A DNA stretch of 32,022 nucleotides, from the NCBI GenBank assembly GCA_017619685.1, contig JAFZRW010000050.1, forward strand, positions 1 to 32,022, given 5' to 3'. The notes under the pieces are model-generated. The model was not told the origin of the DNA, did not search any database, and was given only the letters and a program-made list of their open reading frames with translations. Of the stretch, positions 5,932 to 18,500 are shown piece after piece. Source of the DNA: Schwartzia sp. (in: firmicutes) (lineage in GTDB: Bacteria > Bacillota > Negativicutes > Selenomonadales > Selenomonadaceae). How positions within the stretch are numbered: the stretch's first letter is position 1; the number at the start of each line of letters is the position of its first letter. Position numbers and translations under genes: made by a program.

Positions 5932-8442
5932 TTATTTTTTGAGCGCTTCGGCTTTTTCTTTCTCAAGCTGCGCGAGATAGCCGGAAAGGAGACCTTCCTT
6001 CAGTCCGCCGCTCTCTGCGGGGGCCGGTTCCGACGCAGGCGCTTCTGCCGTTTCGGCAGGGTCGAAAAGCTCCGTGGAGGATTCGGCAGATTCGCTGGGC
6101 TCGGCGGCCTTCGCTGCGACATTCGCCGCGGCTTTTTTGGCGATAACGTCCTTCGAGAGCTGAATGTCGACGTCGATGTGGTCGCCGTTCATGATCGGAT
6201 CGGTGAACGTCGCGGGCGTGTCGTTGACTTTGATCGTGACGTGCATCCCGCTGGTCGGTTCCGGCGGCGTGAAGCCCACCGCCATCAGCGCCGTGCTGAC
6301 GAGCGTTGCGCGGCGTTCGGACAGCTCATATTTCACGCTGCACCCTTCGGTGACGATGGTGTTCGCCGTGGCGGGGCGTCCGTTCAGTTCCAGGGACACC
6401 GCCGCAGACGGGATTTTCTTTTCCGCGCCGTTGAAGTAGATCACGAGGCTCGTCTCGTAATCGGAAAGCCCAAGCACTTCGCCGAGTTTCGGATCGTCCG
6501 GCAGATGATACTCGATGCGGTCGCCCTCGTAAATCGTCGTTGAGAGCGTCGTCGGCTCGTCGTTCAGGAGAATCTCCGGAATGCAGGTGAACTGCGTCTC
6601 GGCGCCGTTCAGCTTGTATTTGATTTTCTTTCCCGTCGGCGGGTAGCCGGTGGCCTTCAGCGCTTCGCCGACGCTGCGCGTCTTTTTCGTCGTGACGACG
6701 TCGCCGTCCGCGAGGAGTCGATTCTCGTCCGCGGGTTCGTCGTTCACGAGGAACGCCGCCGCGAGTTTTTTCGGGTTGCCGTTGATATAAAGCGTGTACG
6801 GCTCTTCCTTCGTTTCGAGGACGCTCCCGACGGTCAGCGTCGGCAGCGTGCTTTCGTTGCCCGCCTCGATCTCGATATGCGCGCCGCTCTCGATGATCGT
6901 GTCAAGGTCGGCGGGCGCGCCGTCTACGGTGATGTGGGGGGCGGAGCCAATCGTGCCGGGGAAGAATTTCGCTTCGCCGTCCACTTCGATATGGAGACCG
7001 ACGTCGGTTTCCGTGGCTTCCCGCTGGATCTGGACGCCGGCCGCGAGCAGCGCGTCGGCGACGGTCATGTTGCGGAAATTGAACAGACGGTGTTCCTCGC
7101 CGGAAACGTAAACCGTCAGGAAATGGAGTGTATTCAGCGACGCGATCTTCAAGATGCCGAGCGGCGTCACGGCGTCCGGCTGCATCAATTCCGGCGGCAG
7201 GGCAGAGACGCCGTCGATGGCGTTCGGACGGCGTACGGCAACGCGTTCTACGGGGATTGAGAGCTTGTCCGCCACGAGGGTCGCGAGACGAGGCGTCAGT
7301 GCGCCGCCGCCCACGAGCAGCACCGCCTGCGGCTCGTCGCCGTTCAGGTCGACGATCTGTCGTGCGATGGCGTCGGCGAGCGCCTGAATGGCGGGCATGA
7401 TGGGATCGAGGATTTCGTCGGCCTTCAGATGGTATTCCATGCCGAGAATATCCATGAAATCCACGTCTTTTCCCTCGGCGGCGTCGCGTTTGATGCGCTC
7501 GGCGACGTTGAAGTCGAGCAGGAATTTCTGGCTGATGGCTTCGGTGATTTCATCGCCCGCCTGCGGCACCATGCCGTAAGCGATGACGCTGCCGTTTTTC
7601 GTGATGGCGACGTCGGACGTGCCTGCGCCGATATCGACGAGCACGAGATTCAGATGACGCATGGTCGGCGGGATCAATACGTTGATTGCGGCAATCGGTT
7701 CGAGGGTGACGGCTTTCAAAGAAAGATTCGTCGCCGTGAGCGCCGAGTCCATGGAATCGACGACCTGGCGCGGCAAGAAGGTGGCGATGACGGACGCCTC
7801 GGCATGGGAGCCGCGCTGTCCGACGAGGGATTTCAGCGGAATGCCGTCCAGCGAATACTGGATCGTGCTGTAGCCGACGCAGTAATAGCGCGTCGGATCG
7901 TCAATCTCGGAGGACTCGGCGAGCTTCGCCTGCGCCGCCTGCACGCCAGAAAAATCGAGAAGACGCTCGCCCTCGGCGGTGATGACGCCGGCAAAATCCA
8001 TTTCCGCCTCGGCGGTCATCGTATAAAGCGCGCGGCCTGCGGCGGCAACGGCGACGCTTTTCAGCGGGCCGGTGGACGCTTCCAGTGCGCGCTTGACTTC
8101 GCCGATGACGGCGGCGACCTGCGGCACGTCATGGATCTGGCCGTCGAGCATGGCGCGGGTCTTGTGCTCCCTGCGCGTGGTATCAAGGATCGTCAGCGTA
8201 CCGTCTTCCTCCTGGGCAGCGACAATGCCGATAACGCTTCGCGTGCCGATGTCGAGCGCGAAAATGAGGTCCCGGTTATCTTTGGGCGCAGATTTTTTTG
8301 TTGCGGGTTTATGCGCCGCCGTTTTTTTCGGGGCGCTCTTTTTCGGCGCGGCGACCGCCTTTTCGGCGCCGTTTGCTGCCGTGTCGTTCTTTTTCGTACG
8401 ACGCGTCGCCTTTTTCGGCGCGTCGGCTTTCTCGATTGCCAT
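5932..8442 (-). CDS. FtsA-like actin-fold ATPase with C-terminal 60-residue repeat array
   Basis: An 836-residue protein about twice the length of ordinary FtsA (about 420). Residues 1-55 are a Lys/Ala/Pro-rich tail resembling histone H1 tails. Residues about 58-432 are an FtsA/PilM-type actin fold: ALDIGTRSVIG (phosphate 1), a 1C-like segment ending VAVAAAGRAL, LVDIGAGTSDVAI (phosphate 2) and LLVGGGALTPR (adenosine site). Residues about 443-763 hold a repeat array described under findings. An acidic Ala/Glu/Pro linker and a charged C-terminal helix follow. Start ATG 8442 is preferred over ATG 8451 because the GGAGG lies 10 bases before it and only 1 base before the other. The gene stands alone with its own promoter and terminator. 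FtsA tethers FtsZ to the membrane; whether this protein does so is unknown, and a cell-envelope role is inferred. Confidence 0.85.
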   Translation of the reverse strand: MAIEKADAPKKATRRTKKNDTAANGAEKAVAAPKKSAPKKTAAHKPATKKSAPKDNRDLIFALDIGTRSVIGIVAAQEEDGTLTILDTTRREHKTRAMLDGQIHDVPQVAAVIGEVKRALEASTGPLKSVAVAAAGRALYTMTAEAEMDFAGVITAEGERLLDFSGVQAAQAKLAESSEIDDPTRYYCVGYSTIQYSLDGIPLKSLVGQRGSHAEASVIATFLPRQVVDSMDSALTATNLSLKAVTLEPIAAINVLIPPTMRHLNLVLVDIGAGTSDVAITKNGSVIAYGMVPQAGDEITEAISQKFLLDFNVAERIKRDAAEGKDVDFMDILGMEYHLKADEILDPIMPAIQALADAIARQIVDLNGDEPQAVLLVGGGALTPRLATLVADKLSIPVERVAVRRPNAIDGVSALPPELMQPDAVTPLGILKIASLNTLHFLTVYVSGEEHRLFNFRNMTVADALLAAGVQIQREATETDVGLHIEVDGEAKFFPGTIGSAPHITVDGAPADLDTIIESGAHIEIEAGNESTLPTLTVGSVLETKEEPYTLYINGNPKKLAAAFLVNDEPADENRLLADGDVVTTKKTRSVGEALKATGYPPTGKKIKYKLNGAETQFTCIPEILLNDEPTTLSTTIYEGDRIEYHLPDDPKLGEVLGLSDYETSLVIYFNGAEKKIPSAAVSLELNGRPATANTIVTEGCSVKYELSERRATLVSTALMAVGFTPPEPTSGMHVTIKVNDTPATFTDPIMNGDHIDVDIQLSKDVIAKKAAANVAAKAAEPSESAESSTELFDPAETAEAPASEPAPAESGGLKEGLLSGYLAQLEKEKAEALKK

Positions 8443-8500
8443 AAAATCCATACCTCCAAGTGCTTTCGGTGTTTCCTTTGATTGAACGCTCTATTCGGAT

Positions 8501-8529: not shown

Positions 8530-8619
8530 ATTGAAAATCAGAACTTTTTTGCAGGAAATTTATAACAAATCGCGAATAATAAACATAATAATGAATTTGC
8601 GCATAAGGAGATGAAAGGT

Positions 8620-9891
8620 ATGGGCACGAACGGGGAGGTTATCACCGGCAGCGACTTCAAGCGCATGATTGCGGGCGCATACAGCGAGTTCTTGCTGGAA
8701 TATGAGAATATCAACGCGCTCGACAAAAAGCTCCGTCCGTCGTATGGCGCTCATCCGGGCACGAATATTTTGCGGACGATGGGAGCGGCGGTCATGCCGA
8801 CCGCGACGACGAAAGACGACAGTATCGGCGGGCTCTCACGCCGTGTCGCGTCGGCGGCGATCCTCGGCGCCAGGGGCAATTCCGGCGTGGTGTTGTCGCA
8901 GATTTTCCGCGGTCTTGCGAAAGGCCTCAGCGGGAAGGTCAACGCGACGTCGTCGGAATTCGGCAAGGCGTTCCAATACGGTATTTTGTACGCGCAGCGC
9001 GTGCTGCCGGAAGAACCGGAGCGTCCGCTGGTCAACGCGGCGCGTGCGGTGGCGAAAGGCGCGTATCACGCGGTGCGGGCGAATCTCCCAATCACGGAAA
9101 TCTTGGCCGCCGCCATTGCGGCGGGGGAGCATCCCGTCGCGGGCGACGCCGAGCTCGATGTGGGCGAGCGCATCATGCTGACGTTCCTCGTCGGCTGTCA
9201 AAAAGGACTGAACGGCAATTTCGTTTCCCCCGCGCTGAATTTTTCCGTCGGGACGGGAGAGAAGACGGCGGGATTGCCCGACCCGCGCCGCGATATTGTG
9301 CACCCGTATTGCCTGACGTTTTGCATCAAGAATCAGCAGGCGGATGAAAATGAGGTCGAGCGGCTCCTGGCGGAAAATTCCAGTTTCGTTGTCGTCGAGC
9401 GCAGGCGTCATACGCTGCATGTGCATCTGCATACCGCGCATCCCGGCGTCGTGCTCGAATATGCGGCGGGGCTTGGCCCGATCAGCGATATTCGGCTGAA
9501 CAATATGGCGGAGCCGCATTCGATGGTACTCGCGCATTCGTCGCTCATGCCGGTGGCGCTGTTGGCCGTCTCGCGCCGTGAGGAGCAGGCGAATCGGCTG
9601 ACGGAGCTCGGCGCGACATTGATCACGCGCGGCGACGAAGGCGACGTGCCGTCCGTCGGCGCGCTCGTGAACGCCGCACACAGCGATCTCGCGGAGTCTT
9701 ATGTGCTTGTGCCGGACGGGCCGCGAATGAAGCTGGAACTGCAGCAGGTCAAGCGCATCATGGGCCACCGTGTTGAGATCGTTTCCGTCTTGAGTGAAGC
9801 GGAGCAGGAGGCCGCCGTCAGGAGCTTCGACCGCCGCCTTTCCGCCGAGCAAAATGCCGAGCGTATGCAGGCGCGACTGATGGATAAGTAA
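8620..9891 (+). CDS. FakA/DhaL-like (DAK2 domain) protein with degenerate metal site
   Basis: A 423-residue relative of the fatty-acid kinase FakA/YloV, whose DhaL-like N-terminal domain binds ADP-Mg and phosphorylates fatty acid bound to FakB. The family motif GARGNSGVVLSQIFRG is present at residues 83-98. However, the stretch that normally reads NALNVFPVPDGDTGTNM is here NALDKKLRPSYGAHPGTNI (32-50). The aspartates that bind the magnesium ions are lost while GTN is kept. The C-terminal part (VPSVGALVNAAHSDLAESYVLVP) resembles the FakA C-terminal domain. Full FakA is about 550 residues, so this is shortened. Start ATG 8620 is chosen because AAGGAG abuts the alternative ATG at 8611. It is divergent from the FtsA-like gene. 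It may be a non-catalytic paralogue; this is inference. Confidence 0.75.
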   Translation: MGTNGEVITGSDFKRMIAGAYSEFLLEYENINALDKKLRPSYGAHPGTNILRTMGAAVMPTATTKDDSIGGLSRRVASAAILGARGNSGVVLSQIFRGLAKGLSGKVNATSSEFGKAFQYGILYAQRVLPEEPERPLVNAARAVAKGAYHAVRANLPITEILAAAIAAGEHPVAGDAELDVGERIMLTFLVGCQKGLNGNFVSPALNFSVGTGEKTAGLPDPRRDIVHPYCLTFCIKNQQADENEVERLLAENSSFVVVERRRHTLHVHLHTAHPGVVLEYAAGLGPISDIRLNNMAEPHSMVLAHSSLMPVALLAVSRREEQANRLTELGATLITRGDEGDVPSVGALVNAAHSDLAESYVLVPDGPRMKLELQQVKRIMGHRVEIVSVLSEAEQEAAVRSFDRRLSAEQNAERMQARLMDK

Positions 9892-9902
9892 GGAAAGAAA
9901 AA

Positions 9903-9943
9903 GGGGCTGTCGCAGGAAGAATGATTCTTCCTGCGACAGCCCC
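9903..9943 (-). terminator. Long hairpin at the left end of the AT-rich element
   Basis: Two 20-bp complementary arms (GGGGCTGTCGCAGGAAGAAT and its complement) surround a single base, so the real loop is about seven bases. The poly-T tract (CCTTTTTCTTTCC) follows on the minus strand only, and the plus-strand side reads AATGTCG. It lies 11 bases after the FakA-like stop and may still stop that transcript through stem strength. Confidence 0.55.
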
Positions 9944-10027
9944 AATGTCGTACTTAGAGAATTTTCAGTTAAGTCTTGAAACCTTTGTCTTGTCTGCAAT
10001 TTTTCTGTGTCTGTTTTTGTCATGAAG

Positions 10028-10058
10028 ATTTTGAAGTAAGAAATTCTTACCTCAAAAT
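10028..10058. repeat. AT-rich inverted repeat inside the element
   Basis: ATTTTGAAGTAAGAA pairs with TTCTTACCTCAAAAT, 15 bp with one G-U pair, just before the right terminal repeat. Confidence 0.6.
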
Positions 10059-10181
10059 TTTGCTTGTGCGACAGCCCCTTTGGGGCGGATAGGGCAGGAA
10101 ATTTTAAGCCGTTGTCGAATAAAAAACAAATACAGAAAACAAGGGGAGTCTTCCGTGCATCTGCGACAGGAGGCGGCATCG

Positions 10182-13438
<3,257 letters not shown>

Positions 13439-13442
<4 letters not shown>

Positions 13443-14803
13443 AAAAGCAAAAAGAAACGCGGCTCGTATTGCCGCGCGAGGAATGGCCGTATGAAGTGCC
13501 GAAGAATTGGGTATGGACAACAATCGCATCTATCTTTGATGTAACTTCCAGCAAAAGAGTACATAAAGATGATTGGCTTAAAGAAGGAATACCTTTTTAT
13601 CGCACAAGAGAATTAGTAAAACTCTCAGATTATGGTACAGTTGATAATGAATTATTTATTTCGCGTGAAATGTATGAAGCGTTCAAAAAAAACTTTGGTG
13701 TCCCTCAAATAGGAGATATATTGATTAGTGGAGTTGGAACTATTGGAGTTCCATTTGAAATACAATCAAATGATGAATTTTATTTCAAGGATGGAAACGT
13801 AGTTTGGTTCAAGAAAAAAAAGACAGTTAATTCACGATATATCTACCATCTATATAAAAGTGAGTTCCTGACAAATCAATTACATAATATGTCAGGGGGA
13901 ACCACGGTTGACACATATACTATTGTCAATGCTAAGAGGACCTTAATTCCCCTCCCTCCGCTTCCCGAGCAACAGCGTATCGTCGCCCGTATCGAATCGC
14001 TTTTCTCGAAGCTCGACACCACCGCCGAAAAAATCCGCGCCGCCCTCGACCAATTCCCAATCCGCAAAGCCGCCATTCTGCACAAGGCTTTCACGGGGGA
14101 ACTGACGAAAAAGTGGCGCGAAGAGCACGGAGTGGGGATGGAGAGCTGGGAAAGAAAAACTTTTCAGAATCTCGGTGAAACAAAATTAGGAAAAATGCTG
14201 GACAAGGCCAAAAATCTTGGACACCCCACAAAATATTTGCGAAATATAAATGTTAGGTGGTTCAGCTTTTCGTTTGAGGATGTATTGGAGCTTTTAGCTA
14301 CGGAAGATGAGCGAAAAAAGTTTTCCATTGAAGATGGGGATGTATTGATTTGTGAAGGCGGCGAGCCAGGACGTTGCGCTGTATGGACAAATGGACCAAA
14401 TACGTTCATCTATCAAAAAGCATTGCACCGTTTTCGCCCATATCCTGATAATTTAAGCCAATTTATAGCATATAATCTATATTATCTGAGTATTAGCGGT
14501 AAATTGGAATCTTATTATACCGGCACAACAATTAAGCACTTAACAGGAAAGTCATTGGCAAAACTTTCTGTTCCTGTTCCCACGCTCCCCGAACAAAAAG
14601 AAATCGTCCGTATCCTTGACGTTATTTTCGATCGCGAGCAGAAAGCGAAGGAAGCCGCCGAGCACCTGCTCGAAAACATCGACCTTACAAAAAAATCCAT
14701 CCTCGCCCGCGCCTTCCGAGGCAAACTTGGAACGAACGACCCGAAGGAAGCAAGCGCGGAAGGATTGCTGAAATACTCATATCATAAGGAGGTTTCAAAA
14801 TGA
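13439..14803 (+). CDS. hsdS: Type I restriction-modification specificity subunit
   Basis: HsdS sets the DNA target for both methylation and cleavage. The 454 residues show the classic two-fold layout: TRD1 about 20-165, a central conserved helical region (LPPLPEQQRIVARIESLFSK) about 169-235, TRD2 about 238-380, and a second conserved region (TLPEQKEIVRILDVIF) about 381-440. The conserved regions are GC-rich, whereas both TRDs (bases about 13511-13945 and 14151-14580) are strikingly AT-rich, as expected from domain exchange. The start is TTG 13439, overlapping the hsdR stop as TTGA with GGAGGAG about 8 bases upstream. The stop overlaps the next gene as ATGA. The target sequence cannot be read from the protein. 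Confidence 0.92.
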
Positions 14804-16047
14804 ATCGAACACATGAAAATAATTTACCAAAACTGCCTATTCCATATAAACTGACTGAAATATTCATAGACAATTTTAAGACATTCGATGATTCTCATAT
14901 TTATTTCTCAAAAGATATGACTGTTTTCGTCGGAGATAATGCTTCAGGGAAAAGCTCTATCCTGCAGGCATTAACCTTTTTGAAATATTGTTGCACCTCC
15001 ACGGTAGATGACTTTATGAAAGACCGTAGAATGAACGCAGATGATCTTGCTTCAAAGTTATTTCCAAAATTTCAAAAAAATATTACTTTTAGTTTAGAAT
15101 TTGAAAGCGAACAGAAACCTTTAGATAGCCTTTCTTGGATGATTACTTTCGTGGTCAATAAAACAGACAATAAAATAACATTACGTTCAGAAAAAATAAC
15201 ATGGCCATCTATATATAATGTAAAGTCACAGATGATCTTATATTACGATTCAAAAGAAGGTTTTCGACAGAATGAACGAGACAATAAAGGGGAATCCATC
15301 CCTGTAGGCGAGTATTCTTCTTCGCTGATCCGTTTTATTGATGAAAAACAGCGCGAGCAATTTCCACACCTCTACGCCATTAAGCATTTCTTTTTGGAAA
15401 CGGAGCCGTTAGACTTGCTCACACCAAAGGACATGAGACGAAGCGCTCGTGGGCAGGAACGTTCTTTAGGATTTAGCGGTGAAAAATTGCCGAATCTCAT
15501 TTACAAATTGAATGGAAATGAAAGAGAAACATTATTAAATACATTGACTAGAGTGCTTCCTAAAATGAAATCTGTAAGATCAGTGCGTTCCGGCTCAGGA
15601 CGGGCAGGATGGGCACATTTGGAAACCATAGAGCAGTTCAATGAGCACCCTATCACGGTTCAATCCGGTGGAATCAGCGACGGCGTTTTGCGCCTTGTAG
15701 CTTTATTTGCGTTGCCGTTCCTGAACAAAAGCGGCGGCGTCATTTTGCTGGACGAGGTAGAGGACGGAATCAACTCCAGCAACATTGCAATTCTTATGGA
15801 GTTTTTGCGGGAGTATAGCAAAAACAATGGGCAGCAAATTATTCTGACTACGCACAGCACTGTTTTGTTAGACTATGCAAAACCGGAGGAAATTCGTTGC
15901 CTATATCGAGATATAAACGGCTTTACCCAATGTGTAAACTTTTTAGACCTAAAAGACATCAAGGAAGAATTAGCTTATCTCTATCCGGGTGAAGCAATGC
16001 TGAATCGTGGAAAGGATTTTATGAAAGGCTTCACGGAGGAACGCTGA
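14800..16047 (+). CDS. AAA/ABC-type ATPase (AAA15/AAA21, RloA-like) embedded in the restriction operon
   Basis: A 415-residue SMC/ABC-like ATPase. It begins with ITEIF-type strands (LTEIFIDNFKTFDD), then Walker A GDNASGKSS (45-53), a signature-like QSGGISDGVLRL (288-299), Walker B VILLDEVEDG (314-323) and the H-loop LTTHST (349-354). This order is that of the OLD/AAA15/AAA21 families, whose members occur in abortive-infection systems such as RloA, AriA of PARIS and OLD. No nuclease domain is fused to it. Its start overlaps the hsdS stop (ATGA), and its TGA shares a base with the ATG of the TOPRIM-like gene, so the pair is translationally coupled. It is AT-rich compared with hsdR and hsdM. A phage-sensing role is inferred from the family and context. 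Confidence 0.85.
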   Translation: MNRTHENNLPKLPIPYKLTEIFIDNFKTFDDSHIYFSKDMTVFVGDNASGKSSILQALTFLKYCCTSTVDDFMKDRRMNADDLASKLFPKFQKNITFSLEFESEQKPLDSLSWMITFVVNKTDNKITLRSEKITWPSIYNVKSQMILYYDSKEGFRQNERDNKGESIPVGEYSSSLIRFIDEKQREQFPHLYAIKHFFLETEPLDLLTPKDMRRSARGQERSLGFSGEKLPNLIYKLNGNERETLLNTLTRVLPKMKSVRSVRSGSGRAGWAHLETIEQFNEHPITVQSGGISDGVLRLVALFALPFLNKSGGVILLDEVEDGINSSNIAILMEFLREYSKNNGQQIILTTHSTVLLDYAKPEEIRCLYRDINGFTQCVNFLDLKDIKEELAYLYPGEAMLNRGKDFMKGFTEER

Positions 16048-16805
16048 TGTTAAAACTTTTATTGCAGGGAGAAGGCCCGACGGATTGTGGAACTGTAAAT
16101 TATCAAACGGGAACTATAGAGGAAGGCCCCGTTCAGATATTTATTCGCAAAATCCTTGGAGAAACAGACGTAACCATGAACCTGTTCCCACGCTCGGAAA
16201 TGGAACTAAGCTCGCCCAAACACAGAAGGATTCGGTTGCAACCTCACAACCGGAATCTGAAAGGACATGGAATCCGCGCATATCTTTTGAGCATTGAGGC
16301 AATGCGACAAAAATGCGACGGAGGCATGTTATATGTCGACGCTGATAAGGAAAGCGGTGTCGACGCACGAAAAGAATCCGCATGTCAAAAAAGATACGAC
16401 GAGATAAAAACAGATATTCTTCGTGGTTTTCAGGCGAAAGAACTCCGCGGCGTTGCCGCAATCCCCATGAAGATGATCGAAAGCTGGATGATAGGGGACG
16501 AAAAAGCGCTTCCAAAGGCTTTCGGAGGAATTCGACAGTCCAAGCACAAGAAGGACAATCAAAAAGGAGCTGTTGAATCGTGTCCTGCAAAGCCGGAATT
16601 AGATTGGGGAGATAAGGCTAACCCAAGCAGTAATTATCCTAAGAATCGGTTATCCCGGATATTATCCGCGTATAATCGAGAAGCTTGTCGGGAAGTCTTT
16701 TGCGAAATAGCGAAAAATGCTGACATTACAACGCTTCGCAAGACTTGCCCCATCAGTTTCGATGATTTCCACAATCAACTCATAGCATTACGAAAGGAAA
16801 TATGA
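16047..16805 (+). CDS. TOPRIM-like protein (DUF4276/RloB type), likely effector partner of the ATPase
   Basis: A 252-residue protein with a TOPRIM-like pattern: an N-terminal strand ending in Glu (LLLQGEGPTD, E9), then LYVDADKES with D98 and D100, and AAIPMKMIESWMIGD at about 137-151, which is characteristic of DUF4276-like proteins. The end reads CPISFDDFHNQL. TOPRIM proteins coordinate metal through these acidic residues and are often nucleases. In PARIS the AAA ATPase AriA holds the TOPRIM protein AriB, and in Campylobacter hsd loci RloA and RloB occur together. This pair has the same layout. The family assignment rests on motifs only. The gene overlaps the ATPase by one base and ends TGA one base before the next ATG. 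It is AT-rich like its partner. Confidence 0.7.
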   Translation: MLKLLLQGEGPTDCGTVNYQTGTIEEGPVQIFIRKILGETDVTMNLFPRSEMELSSPKHRRIRLQPHNRNLKGHGIRAYLLSIEAMRQKCDGGMLYVDADKESGVDARKESACQKRYDEIKTDILRGFQAKELRGVAAIPMKMIESWMIGDEKALPKAFGGIRQSKHKKDNQKGAVESCPAKPELDWGDKANPSSNYPKNRLSRILSAYNREACREVFCEIAKNADITTLRKTCPISFDDFHNQLIALRKEI

Positions 16806-16806
16806 A

Positions 16807-17088
16807 ATGAATAATACCATCATCAGCGATGGACCATACAATATGAATCCGCTTCTCCATCAATTATTTTCTGCACTGGTAAATCAAAGCATTATCAACC
16901 AAAGACAACGAACGGTCATCTTGCCAAAAGGCCAACAAGAGGCATTAAATAAGATTTTAGAAGCGTTACACGATTTCAATGAGAATTGGTCAAAAATTGA
17001 ACCTGCATTTAAACCGATTGCTTTCGAGGAAAGCATATTAAAAATCGCTTCCGAAATTGGATGGATTATTGAAAGGAACCAACCATGA
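16807..17088 (+). CDS. Small unknown protein of the restriction-operon insert
   Basis: A 93-residue protein that I do not recognise. It has no signal peptide or membrane segment. The middle (KGQQEALNKILEALHDFNENW) and the end (FEESILKIASEIGWIIE) look helical. It starts one base after the TOPRIM-like stop, and its TGA overlaps the hsdM ATG as ATGA, so it is translated from the same message. AT-rich composition matches the ATPase and TOPRIM-like genes and not hsdM, so it probably arrived with that module. It could be a regulator, an inhibitor of the effector, or simply the coupling piece that keeps hsdM translated; nothing in the sequence decides. Confidence 0.6.
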   Translation: MNNTIISDGPYNMNPLLHQLFSALVNQSIINQRQRTVILPKGQQEALNKILEALHDFNENWSKIEPAFKPIAFEESILKIASEIGWIIERNQP

Positions 17089-18500
17089 CCACGCAGGAAA
17101 TCGTGCAAAAGCTCTGGAACCTCTGCAACGTGCTTCGGGACGACGGCATCACCTATCATCAGTACGTCACCGAGCTGACCTATATCCTGTTCCTGAAAAT
17201 GGCGAAGGAAACGGGTTCGGAGAAGGACATTCCCGAGGGCTGGCGCTGGGATGACCTGACCGCGAAAAGCGGCGTCGCGCTGAAAAGTTACTACAAGAAG
17301 CTCCTGACGCAGCTCGGCGAGCATTCCACGGGGCGCATCCGCGAAATATATCAGGGCGCGTCCACGAACATTGACGAACCGAAGAACCTCGAAAAGATCA
17401 TCACCTCCATCGACGCCCTCGACTGGTTCTCCGCCCGTGAGGAAGGGCTTGGCAATCTCTACGAAGGGCTTTTGGAGAAGAACGCCAACGAGAAGAAATC
17501 CGGCGCAGGCCAATATTTTACGCCCCGCCCGCTCATCGACGTGATGACGCGGCTGATGAAGCCGCAACCCGGCGAACGGTGCAACGATCCGGCCTGCGGC
17601 ACATTCGGCTTCATGCTTGCCGCGAGCCGATACGTGCGCGAGCACACGGACGACTTTTTCGACCTTGACGCCGACATGGCAACTTTCGAGAAAAACGAAG
17701 CGTTCACGGGCTGCGAGCTTGTCCATGACGCGCACCGCCTCGCTCTGATGAACGCCATGCTTCACGACGTCAACGGAAAGATTTTCCTTGCCGACACGCT
17801 TTCCAACGTGGGCAAGCAAATGAAGGGCTACGACCTCGTGCTGACGAATCCGCCCTTCGGCACGAAGAAAGGCGGCGAGCGCGCGACCCGCGACGATTTC
17901 ACGTTCCCGACGAGCAACAAGCAGCTCAATTTTCTCCAGCACATCTACCGCAGCCTGAAAGCCGACGGCAAAGCGCGTGCTGCCGTCGTACTGCCGGACA
18001 ACGTGCTTTTCGCCGACGGCGACGGCGCGAAAATCCGCGCCGACCTGATGGACAAATGCGACCTCCATACCGTCCTGCGTTTGCCTACGGGCATTTTCTA
18101 CGCGCAGGGCGTCAAGACGAACGTGCTGTTCTTCACGCGGGGCAAGACCGACAAGGGCAACACCAAGGAAGTCTGGTTCTATGACCTTCGGACGAATATG
18201 CCCTCCTTCGGCAAGACGAATCCGCTGAAAACGGAGCATTTCAAAAATATCGAGGCTGCCTTTGAAGCGAAAGATCGCCATACGGTCAAAGATGAACGGT
18301 TCAGCGTCTTCACCCGGGACGAGATTCGCGCGAAGGGCGACAGCCTCGACCTCGGCCTGATTCGCGACGATTCGGTGCTGGATTACGACGATCTCCCCGA
18401 TCCTGTCGAAAGCTGTGAAGAGACTATCGCTCAGTTGGAGGAAGCAACCGGGCTTTTGATGGACGTGGTAAAGGAACTGAAATCGCTTCGCGCTTCTTAA
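17085..18500 (+). CDS. hsdM: Type I restriction-modification DNA methyltransferase subunit (N6-adenine)
   Basis: HsdM methylates adenine in the HsdS-defined target, using S-adenosylmethionine. The 471 residues show the N-terminal helical HsdM domain (VQKLWNLCNVLRDDGITYHQY), the linker GAGQYFTPRPLIDVM, the SAM-binding motif DPACGTFGF at about 168, the catalytic NPPFG at about 255, and a C-terminal helical segment for HsdS contact. All key residues are present, so it should be active. The gene is GC-rich like hsdR and overlaps the small upstream gene by 4 bp. Its position last, after the foreign-looking module, separates it from hsdS and makes its translation depend on the module genes. A strong terminator follows. 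Confidence 0.95.
   Translation: MTTQEIVQKLWNLCNVLRDDGITYHQYVTELTYILFLKMAKETGSEKDIPEGWRWDDLTAKSGVALKSYYKKLLTQLGEHSTGRIREIYQGASTNIDEPKNLEKIITSIDALDWFSAREEGLGNLYEGLLEKNANEKKSGAGQYFTPRPLIDVMTRLMKPQPGERCNDPACGTFGFMLAASRYVREHTDDFFDLDADMATFEKNEAFTGCELVHDAHRLALMNAMLHDVNGKIFLADTLSNVGKQMKGYDLVLTNPPFGTKKGGERATRDDFTFPTSNKQLNFLQHIYRSLKADGKARAAVVLPDNVLFADGDGAKIRADLMDKCDLHTVLRLPTGIFYAQGVKTNVLFFTRGKTDKGNTKEVWFYDLRTNMPSFGKTNPLKTEHFKNIEAAFEAKDRHTVKDERFSVFTRDEIRAKGDSLDLGLIRDDSVLDYDDLPDPVESCEETIAQLEEATGLLMDVVKELKSLRAS

Follow-up and report, generated by a model that had tools for sequence, protein, structure and literature searches.

Wall growth and division in bacteria are organised by a small number of well-studied actins. 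The protein family reported here resembles one of them, FtsA (TIGR01174), in its actin fold with a 1C subdomain and in its ATP motifs. While FtsA ends in an amphipathic helix, the family protein ends in a predicted array of beta-grasp modules. PilM (TIGR01175) and EutJ belong to the same actin subfamily and give weaker matches, but the gene context of the family is different and, to our knowledge, neither of the two carries such an array. The array shares the beta-grasp fold and the VNG...GDxIxV signature with ThiS, MoaD, TGS and Ub-Mut7C, but its modules are in tandem, apparently interleaved, without a terminal GG and fused to an actin ATPase. Tandem ubiquitin-like domains within a single bacterial protein are found in the multi-ubiquitin BubA (PDB codes 9cd2, 9d59 and 9ea8); the sequence kinship to BubA, however, is little beyond the fold, and no conjugation genes were recognised near the family gene. 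RpfB with its DUF348 modules (PDB code 5e27) likewise presents short ubiquitin-like modules in tandem, which our model matches with a Z of 5.8. RpfB is a secreted wall enzyme and is not known to have an actin domain.

In agreement with the original prediction, which knew of no such description, searches of the largely open-access literature found no account of an FtsA fused to a beta-grasp or ubiquitin-like array, or of a relative linked to mre, min or rodA. What we rate as new is the C-terminal architecture on an actin of the FtsA superfamily; the superfamily itself is known. If our reading is correct, more than half of the sampled Bacillota genomes encode an FtsA paralogue with a ubiquitin-fold stalk in the place of the membrane anchor. 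In Clostridia and Negativicutes it would be a further component in the control of shape or division, and it would be relevant to how lineages that have no canonical FtsA manage. The interleaved beta-grasp array would be an unusual way of building a repeat protein.

The actin domain and its relation to FtsA

The window, the whole stretch of 32,022 nucleotides from Schwartzia sp. that was analysed, encodes on the minus strand an FtsA-like protein of 839 amino acids with a C-terminal beta-grasp array (5932..8451), defined by its open reading frame and by homologue matches. In most Negativicutes genomes searched, homologues match this frame near full length, at approximately residues 60-765. The protein opens with a Lys/Ala-rich N-terminal extension (residues 1-58; 8278..8451, minus), whereas in most Clostridial members the actin domain begins near the N-terminus. 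The FtsA-type actin-fold ATPase domain with its 1C subdomain follows (residues 60-433; 7153..8274, minus; TIGR01174 and VIA), with LDIGTRS and DIGAGTSD as its phosphate motifs.

Residues 60-433 match the FtsA Pfam model at 2.5e-12 and the full TIGR01174 model (positions 2-368) at 1.4e-22. The AlphaFold2 model of the core (pLDDT 83, pTM 0.56) has as its best solved fold relative the Vibrio FtsA (PDB code 7q6f; VIA Z of 37.0, 361 residues at 2.4 Å). The model aligns over FtsA 8-389 and presents the actin fold with the 1C subdomain. Weaker actin matches are seen for PilM (Z of 31.2), MreB (25.0) and EutJ (24.8). Both the sequence models and the fold match thus bear out the fusion of the repeats to an actin-fold ATPase. 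Simple patterns find the two phosphate-binding motifs in 266 and 255 of the 272 different family members collected; the pattern for the adenosine motif matched 105 of the 272, and we considered it too strict for interpretation.

The matches of the actin part to PilM_2, TIGR01175 and EutJ, with the PilM Z of 31, would suit an assembly ATPase of PilM or EutJ type that binds membrane-protein tails of a pilus, a microcompartment or another machine. We regard this as distinctly unlikely. FtsA ranks higher on both fold and HMM, the TIGR01175 score of 60.4 bits is below the cut-off of 133 bits, and the conserved neighbours include no recognised pilus or microcompartment genes, nor do the neighbours in the window include any pilus genes.

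Judged by its sequence, the protein is a Bacillota paralogue of FtsA and not FtsA itself, as four observations argue. First, its TIGR01174 score of 80.3 bits is below the curated cut-off of 175.85 bits; family members score 77-128 bits and canonical FtsA 190-444 bits. Second, in a tree of 45 actin domains the 25 family members form one clade (100/100), separated by a long branch from the 14 canonical FtsA sequences, which form another (99/99). Third, canonical FtsA ends in an amphipathic helix (for example, SRLKNWWRELF), but this helix is missing from most family members, which end just after the last beta strand; the median terminal hydrophobic moment is 0.40 in the family versus 0.64 in canonical FtsA. 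Fourth, a canonical FtsA above the cut-off coexists with the family protein in most Clostridial genomes tested. Canonical FtsA adjoins FtsZ where both were searched (for example, in G377), and no gene of the FtsA-like family was found beside ftsZ.

The C-terminal repeat and its predicted fold

All of the motifs named in the original prediction are found in the 839-residue frame, shifted by +3, as that count had started from the second Met. In the 839-residue numbering, the C-motif (consensus VNG/VND...GDxIxI) occurs in five copies: VDGAP 509, VNDEP 569, LNDEP 629, LNGRP 689 and VNDTP 742. The corresponding Gly turns are SGAHI 522, DGDVV 582, EGDRI 642, EGCSV 702 and NGDHI 755. The hairpins lie at VDGE 490, INGN 556, LNGA 614 and FNGA 673, and one earlier hairpin is added to those by VSGE at 449. 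The periodicity, predicted as exactly 60 residues, is so for three of the four C-motif intervals (60, 60 and 60) but not for the last (53), and the hairpin intervals are less regular (41, 66, 58 and 59).

In the self-match of the single sequence, lag 60 is the best among all lags, followed by 180 and 120, with a score of -0.26 versus -0.33 for the best of 1000 shuffles. On a profile built from 52 homologous sequences, lag 60 scores -0.40, which is above the highest value at any lag from 40 to 90 in each of 2000 column permutations (best, -0.57). As lag 60 beats every permutation and shuffle, the repeat is confirmed as real and not the product of chance. Its anatomy is kept across the family, and homologues differ by whole units of about 60 residues.

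Pfam gives hints only for the window protein alone (Ub-Mut7C, DUF348 and TGS), the Ub-Mut7C score being 21.6 against a gathering cut-off of 23. Over 52 homologues the matches reach 1.5e-15 for ThiS, 3.7e-11 for Ub-Mut7C and 3.2e-9 for TGS, with weak DUF348 matches in 16 members. ThiS is above its gathering cut-off in several homologues (for example, 41.7 versus 22.5), and one member (L041) has a ThiS match at 1.7e-10 whose best stretch falls at the place corresponding to module 5. As for a known Pfam family over this region, ThiS passes its cut-off on portions of the array in other members, but the array itself is covered by no model in Pfam or NCBIfam. The PDB profile search with the array returned no sequence relative and chance-level matches only.

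The AlphaFold2 model of residues 425-768 (pLDDT 82, pTM 0.49) shows repeated beta-grasp modules, in which a beta-hairpin, a helix and strands 3-5 are arranged around one sheet in the order of that fold. The overall arrangement of the domains is uncertain, at a pTM of 0.49 for the array and 0.56 for the core. Foldseek with the array model places linear ubiquitin and the E. coli multi-ubiquitin at the top, followed by ISG15, talin FERM, TGS and SAMP1. VIA-align gives Z of 6-8 to BubA, SAMP1, ThiS and TGS; the alignments to ThiS, SAMP1, TGS and ubiquitin variants extend over approximately 60 residues at 2-3 Å. Residues 20-112 of the array model (module 1) match BubA, SAMP1 and ThiS (Z of 6.9-7.9), residues 124-231 (module 3) match ubiquitin-like folds (Z of 5.6-6.1), and residues 245-344 (module 5) match ThiS (PDB code 2lek; 61 residues, 2.2 Å, Z of 6.2). 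The Z values are middling if taken alone; nearly all top rows are beta-grasp proteins, in agreement with the sequence profiles. Assignment of the modules to the ubiquitin-like beta-grasp fold of the ThiS/TGS type is well supported by profiles and model together. Where four to five beta-rich, perhaps beta-grasp-like modules had been proposed, Pfam over the homologues, AlphaFold2 and the fold search give five.

The best sequence matches being ThiS, MoaD-type and multi-ubiquitin domains, one might propose a chemical role, with the modules as sulfur carriers or conjugated ubiquitin-like tags and the actin domain as their regulator. We hold this to be very improbable. A GG is found at the end of 1 of the 272 members and within the last eight residues of 3, and none of the genes beside the window gene was recognised as being of E1, E2 or JAB type.

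Probable interleaving of the modules

In the AlphaFold2 model the chain passes through hairpin 0, helix 1, hairpin 1, strands 1, helix 2, hairpin 2 and strands 2, and continues in this order until helix 5 and strands 5. Hairpins, helices and strand blocks thus number five each. The array starts with an extra hairpin and has none in the last repeat, as interleaving requires. Predicted module 1 (residues 444-529; 6865..7122, minus; AlphaFold2 and fold matches) would be made of hairpin 0, helix 1 and strands 3-5, with hairpin 1 inserted. Module 2 (residues 485-589; 6685..6999, minus; AlphaFold2 elements and couplings) would interleave with modules 1 and 3, module 3 (residues 552-649; 6505..6798, minus) with modules 2 and 4, and module 4 (residues 608-710; 6322..6630, minus; AlphaFold2 elements) with modules 3 and 5. 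Module 5 (residues 668-765; 6157..6450, minus; ThiS fold and Pfam matches) has its helix-strand part contiguous, and in homologues the corresponding part gives a Pfam ThiS match. Where whole beta-grasp domains are matched, only about 60 aligned residues are spread over approximately 90-100 residues of the model (61 across 100 for ThiS 2lek), and the contiguous helix-plus-strands ThiS match sits at the last module, without an intervening hairpin.

Mean-field couplings were derived from 239 sequences and tested against random blocks (Fisher); an earlier run on 102 sequences was noisy and was repeated with the larger set. Helix k couples to strands k (5e-7), as in module 4, where helix 4 is coupled to strands 4. 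Hairpin k-1 couples to helix k (0.006), while hairpin k and helix k give 0.40. Hairpin k-1 also couples to strands k (k=2-5; 0.03), as for the strands of module 2 with hairpin 1; the sequence neighbours hairpin k and strands k are nearly as strong (0.05). A circularly permuted module (hairpin-strands-helix) was rejected, as helix k+1 and strands k are uncoupled (0.89).

Most likely, the first hairpin of each module is supplied by the preceding repeat. The model and the anatomy of the ends are good support for this arrangement and the couplings moderate; together they suggest interleaving. Ordinary contiguous modules, as beads on a string, would be in keeping with the similar coupling of hairpin k to the strands k that it adjoins in sequence, and the AlphaFold2 confidence between modules is limited. 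We consider beads unlikely, as the order of the fold, the array ends, the helix-strand couplings and the ThiS match of the last module, contiguous over helix and strands, all fit interleaving.

Distribution, gene context and possible function

In an even draw of 398 Bacillota genomes, 218 have a homologue at E <= 1e-30, and almost all of these have just one. Near-full-length homologues occur throughout the Negativicutes, the named matches being Selenomonas and other Selenomonadaceae. Measured between the start of the actin domain and the stop codon, the members form three length clusters (584-594, 641-666 and 700-730), to which the Selenomonadaceae members with a tail are added. Three C-motifs (446, 505 and 555) are found in the shortest class; the middle class mostly has four and the long class mostly five, by a motif count that is noisy. 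The three classes, which differ by about 60 residues, correspond to 3, 4 or 5 modules. Within the family, the array has grown or shrunk by whole units of about 60 residues.

All nine three-module genomes examined, from 4 families, have the order mreD, PBP2, minC, minD, minE, the FtsA-like family gene and rodA, followed by an M23 peptidase, an M50 peptidase and a radical SAM gene; Pfam confirmed the mreD-to-rodA cluster at one locus (L087). The family gene is mostly tightly spaced to rodA at these loci, and an MreB match lies approximately 5-6 kb upstream in the 4 of 4 genomes checked. A second lineage has MreB/Mbl upstream at 3 of 4 loci, at a distance of three or four genes. Most four- and five-module lineages have no conserved neighbours of the family gene; the neighbours vary and include haem genes, cheR and ATP synthase, by names read from sequence.

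We propose, at evenly balanced confidence, that the protein is an FtsA paralogue that combines an actin ATPase with an interlocked stalk docking on Rod or Min partners. Each module would lend a hairpin to the next, resulting in an interlocked and fairly rigid stalk, the length of which would be tuned by whole units of about 60 residues. The actin domain would assemble or switch with ATP like FtsA. The stalk would replace the membrane helix of FtsA and dock the actin domain on its partners, for which RodA-PBP2, MreCD or MinCDE are candidates, and so a cytoskeletal ATPase would be linked to wall synthesis or to placement of the division site. For the functional part, ATP-dependent assembly and docking on Rod or Min, we give about even odds at best, since some near-complete genomes lack the gene and most lineages show no linkage. 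The wider proposal is more tentative, and we would put it somewhat below an even chance: much of the Bacillota may have an undescribed second FtsA-type ATPase that works with Rod and Min through an interlocked polyubiquitin-like stalk, evolved by modules.

The Selenomonadaceae members carry an added Pro/Ala-rich tail, which in the window is a Pro/Ala/Glu-rich linker with the terminal GLLSGYLAQLEKEKAEALKK (residues 769-839; 5935..6147, minus). In 14 of 37 Selenomonadaceae members (L004-L007, L010, L013, L025, L028, L031, L035-L037, L042 and L286) the last residues of the tail follow the pattern [ST]IxDFI[RH] or a variant close to it, with a striking resemblance to the C-terminal peptide TIPDWLRHS of Selenomonadaceae FtsZ; 0 of 761 neighbour genes have this ending. 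The genus of the window has a GLLxDYLAxxEKEK-type ending instead, which is duplicated in L020.

This likeness to FtsZ tails would suit a protein that replaces FtsA as Z-ring anchor and divisome activator in lineages without FtsA, such as the Selenomonadaceae. No canonical FtsA was above the cut-off in the Selenomonadaceae tested, and at least six other genomes (G052, G329, G141, G078, G368 and G385) have no match over the FtsA cut-off; both groups keep the family protein. Replacement is nevertheless improbable in our judgement. Most Clostridia tested have both proteins, the family protein has no membrane helix, and its gene was not found beside ftsZ. SepF is present in 18 of 18 genomes tested, with two copies in most Selenomonadaceae tested, and both canonical FtsA and the FtsA-like protein are missing from two high-quality Selenomonadaceae genomes (G016 and G019). 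As these two keep FtsZ and SepF, the FtsA-like protein is not universally needed. FtsZ was found in 19 of 19 genomes tested, and nine Selenomonadaceae genomes (G006, G009, G010, G012, G016, G017, G019, G028 and G029) have at least two FtsZ-family genes, with four matches in G006, and two SepF genes. C. difficile has been reported to be without an FtsA homologue (PMC12548448, PMC10693644).

In the window, the FtsA-like gene is flanked on one side by a GNAT acetyltransferase, a phosphopentomutase-type metalloenzyme and a pyrimidine nucleoside phosphorylase, and on the other by a reading frame without a Pfam match and a type I restriction system. The adjoining frame (459 amino acids; 8836-10215, minus) has no Pfam match at 1e-5 and may not be the real gene, since the Selenomonadaceae relatives encode on this side a 435-residue protein on the opposite strand; a frame of 426 amino acids lies opposite to it in the window (8611-9891). 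The type I restriction-modification system (10080-18500, plus) comprises HsdR, HsdS and HsdM, and an AbiEii-type AAA ATPase and a DUF4276-like protein are encoded between HsdS and HsdM.
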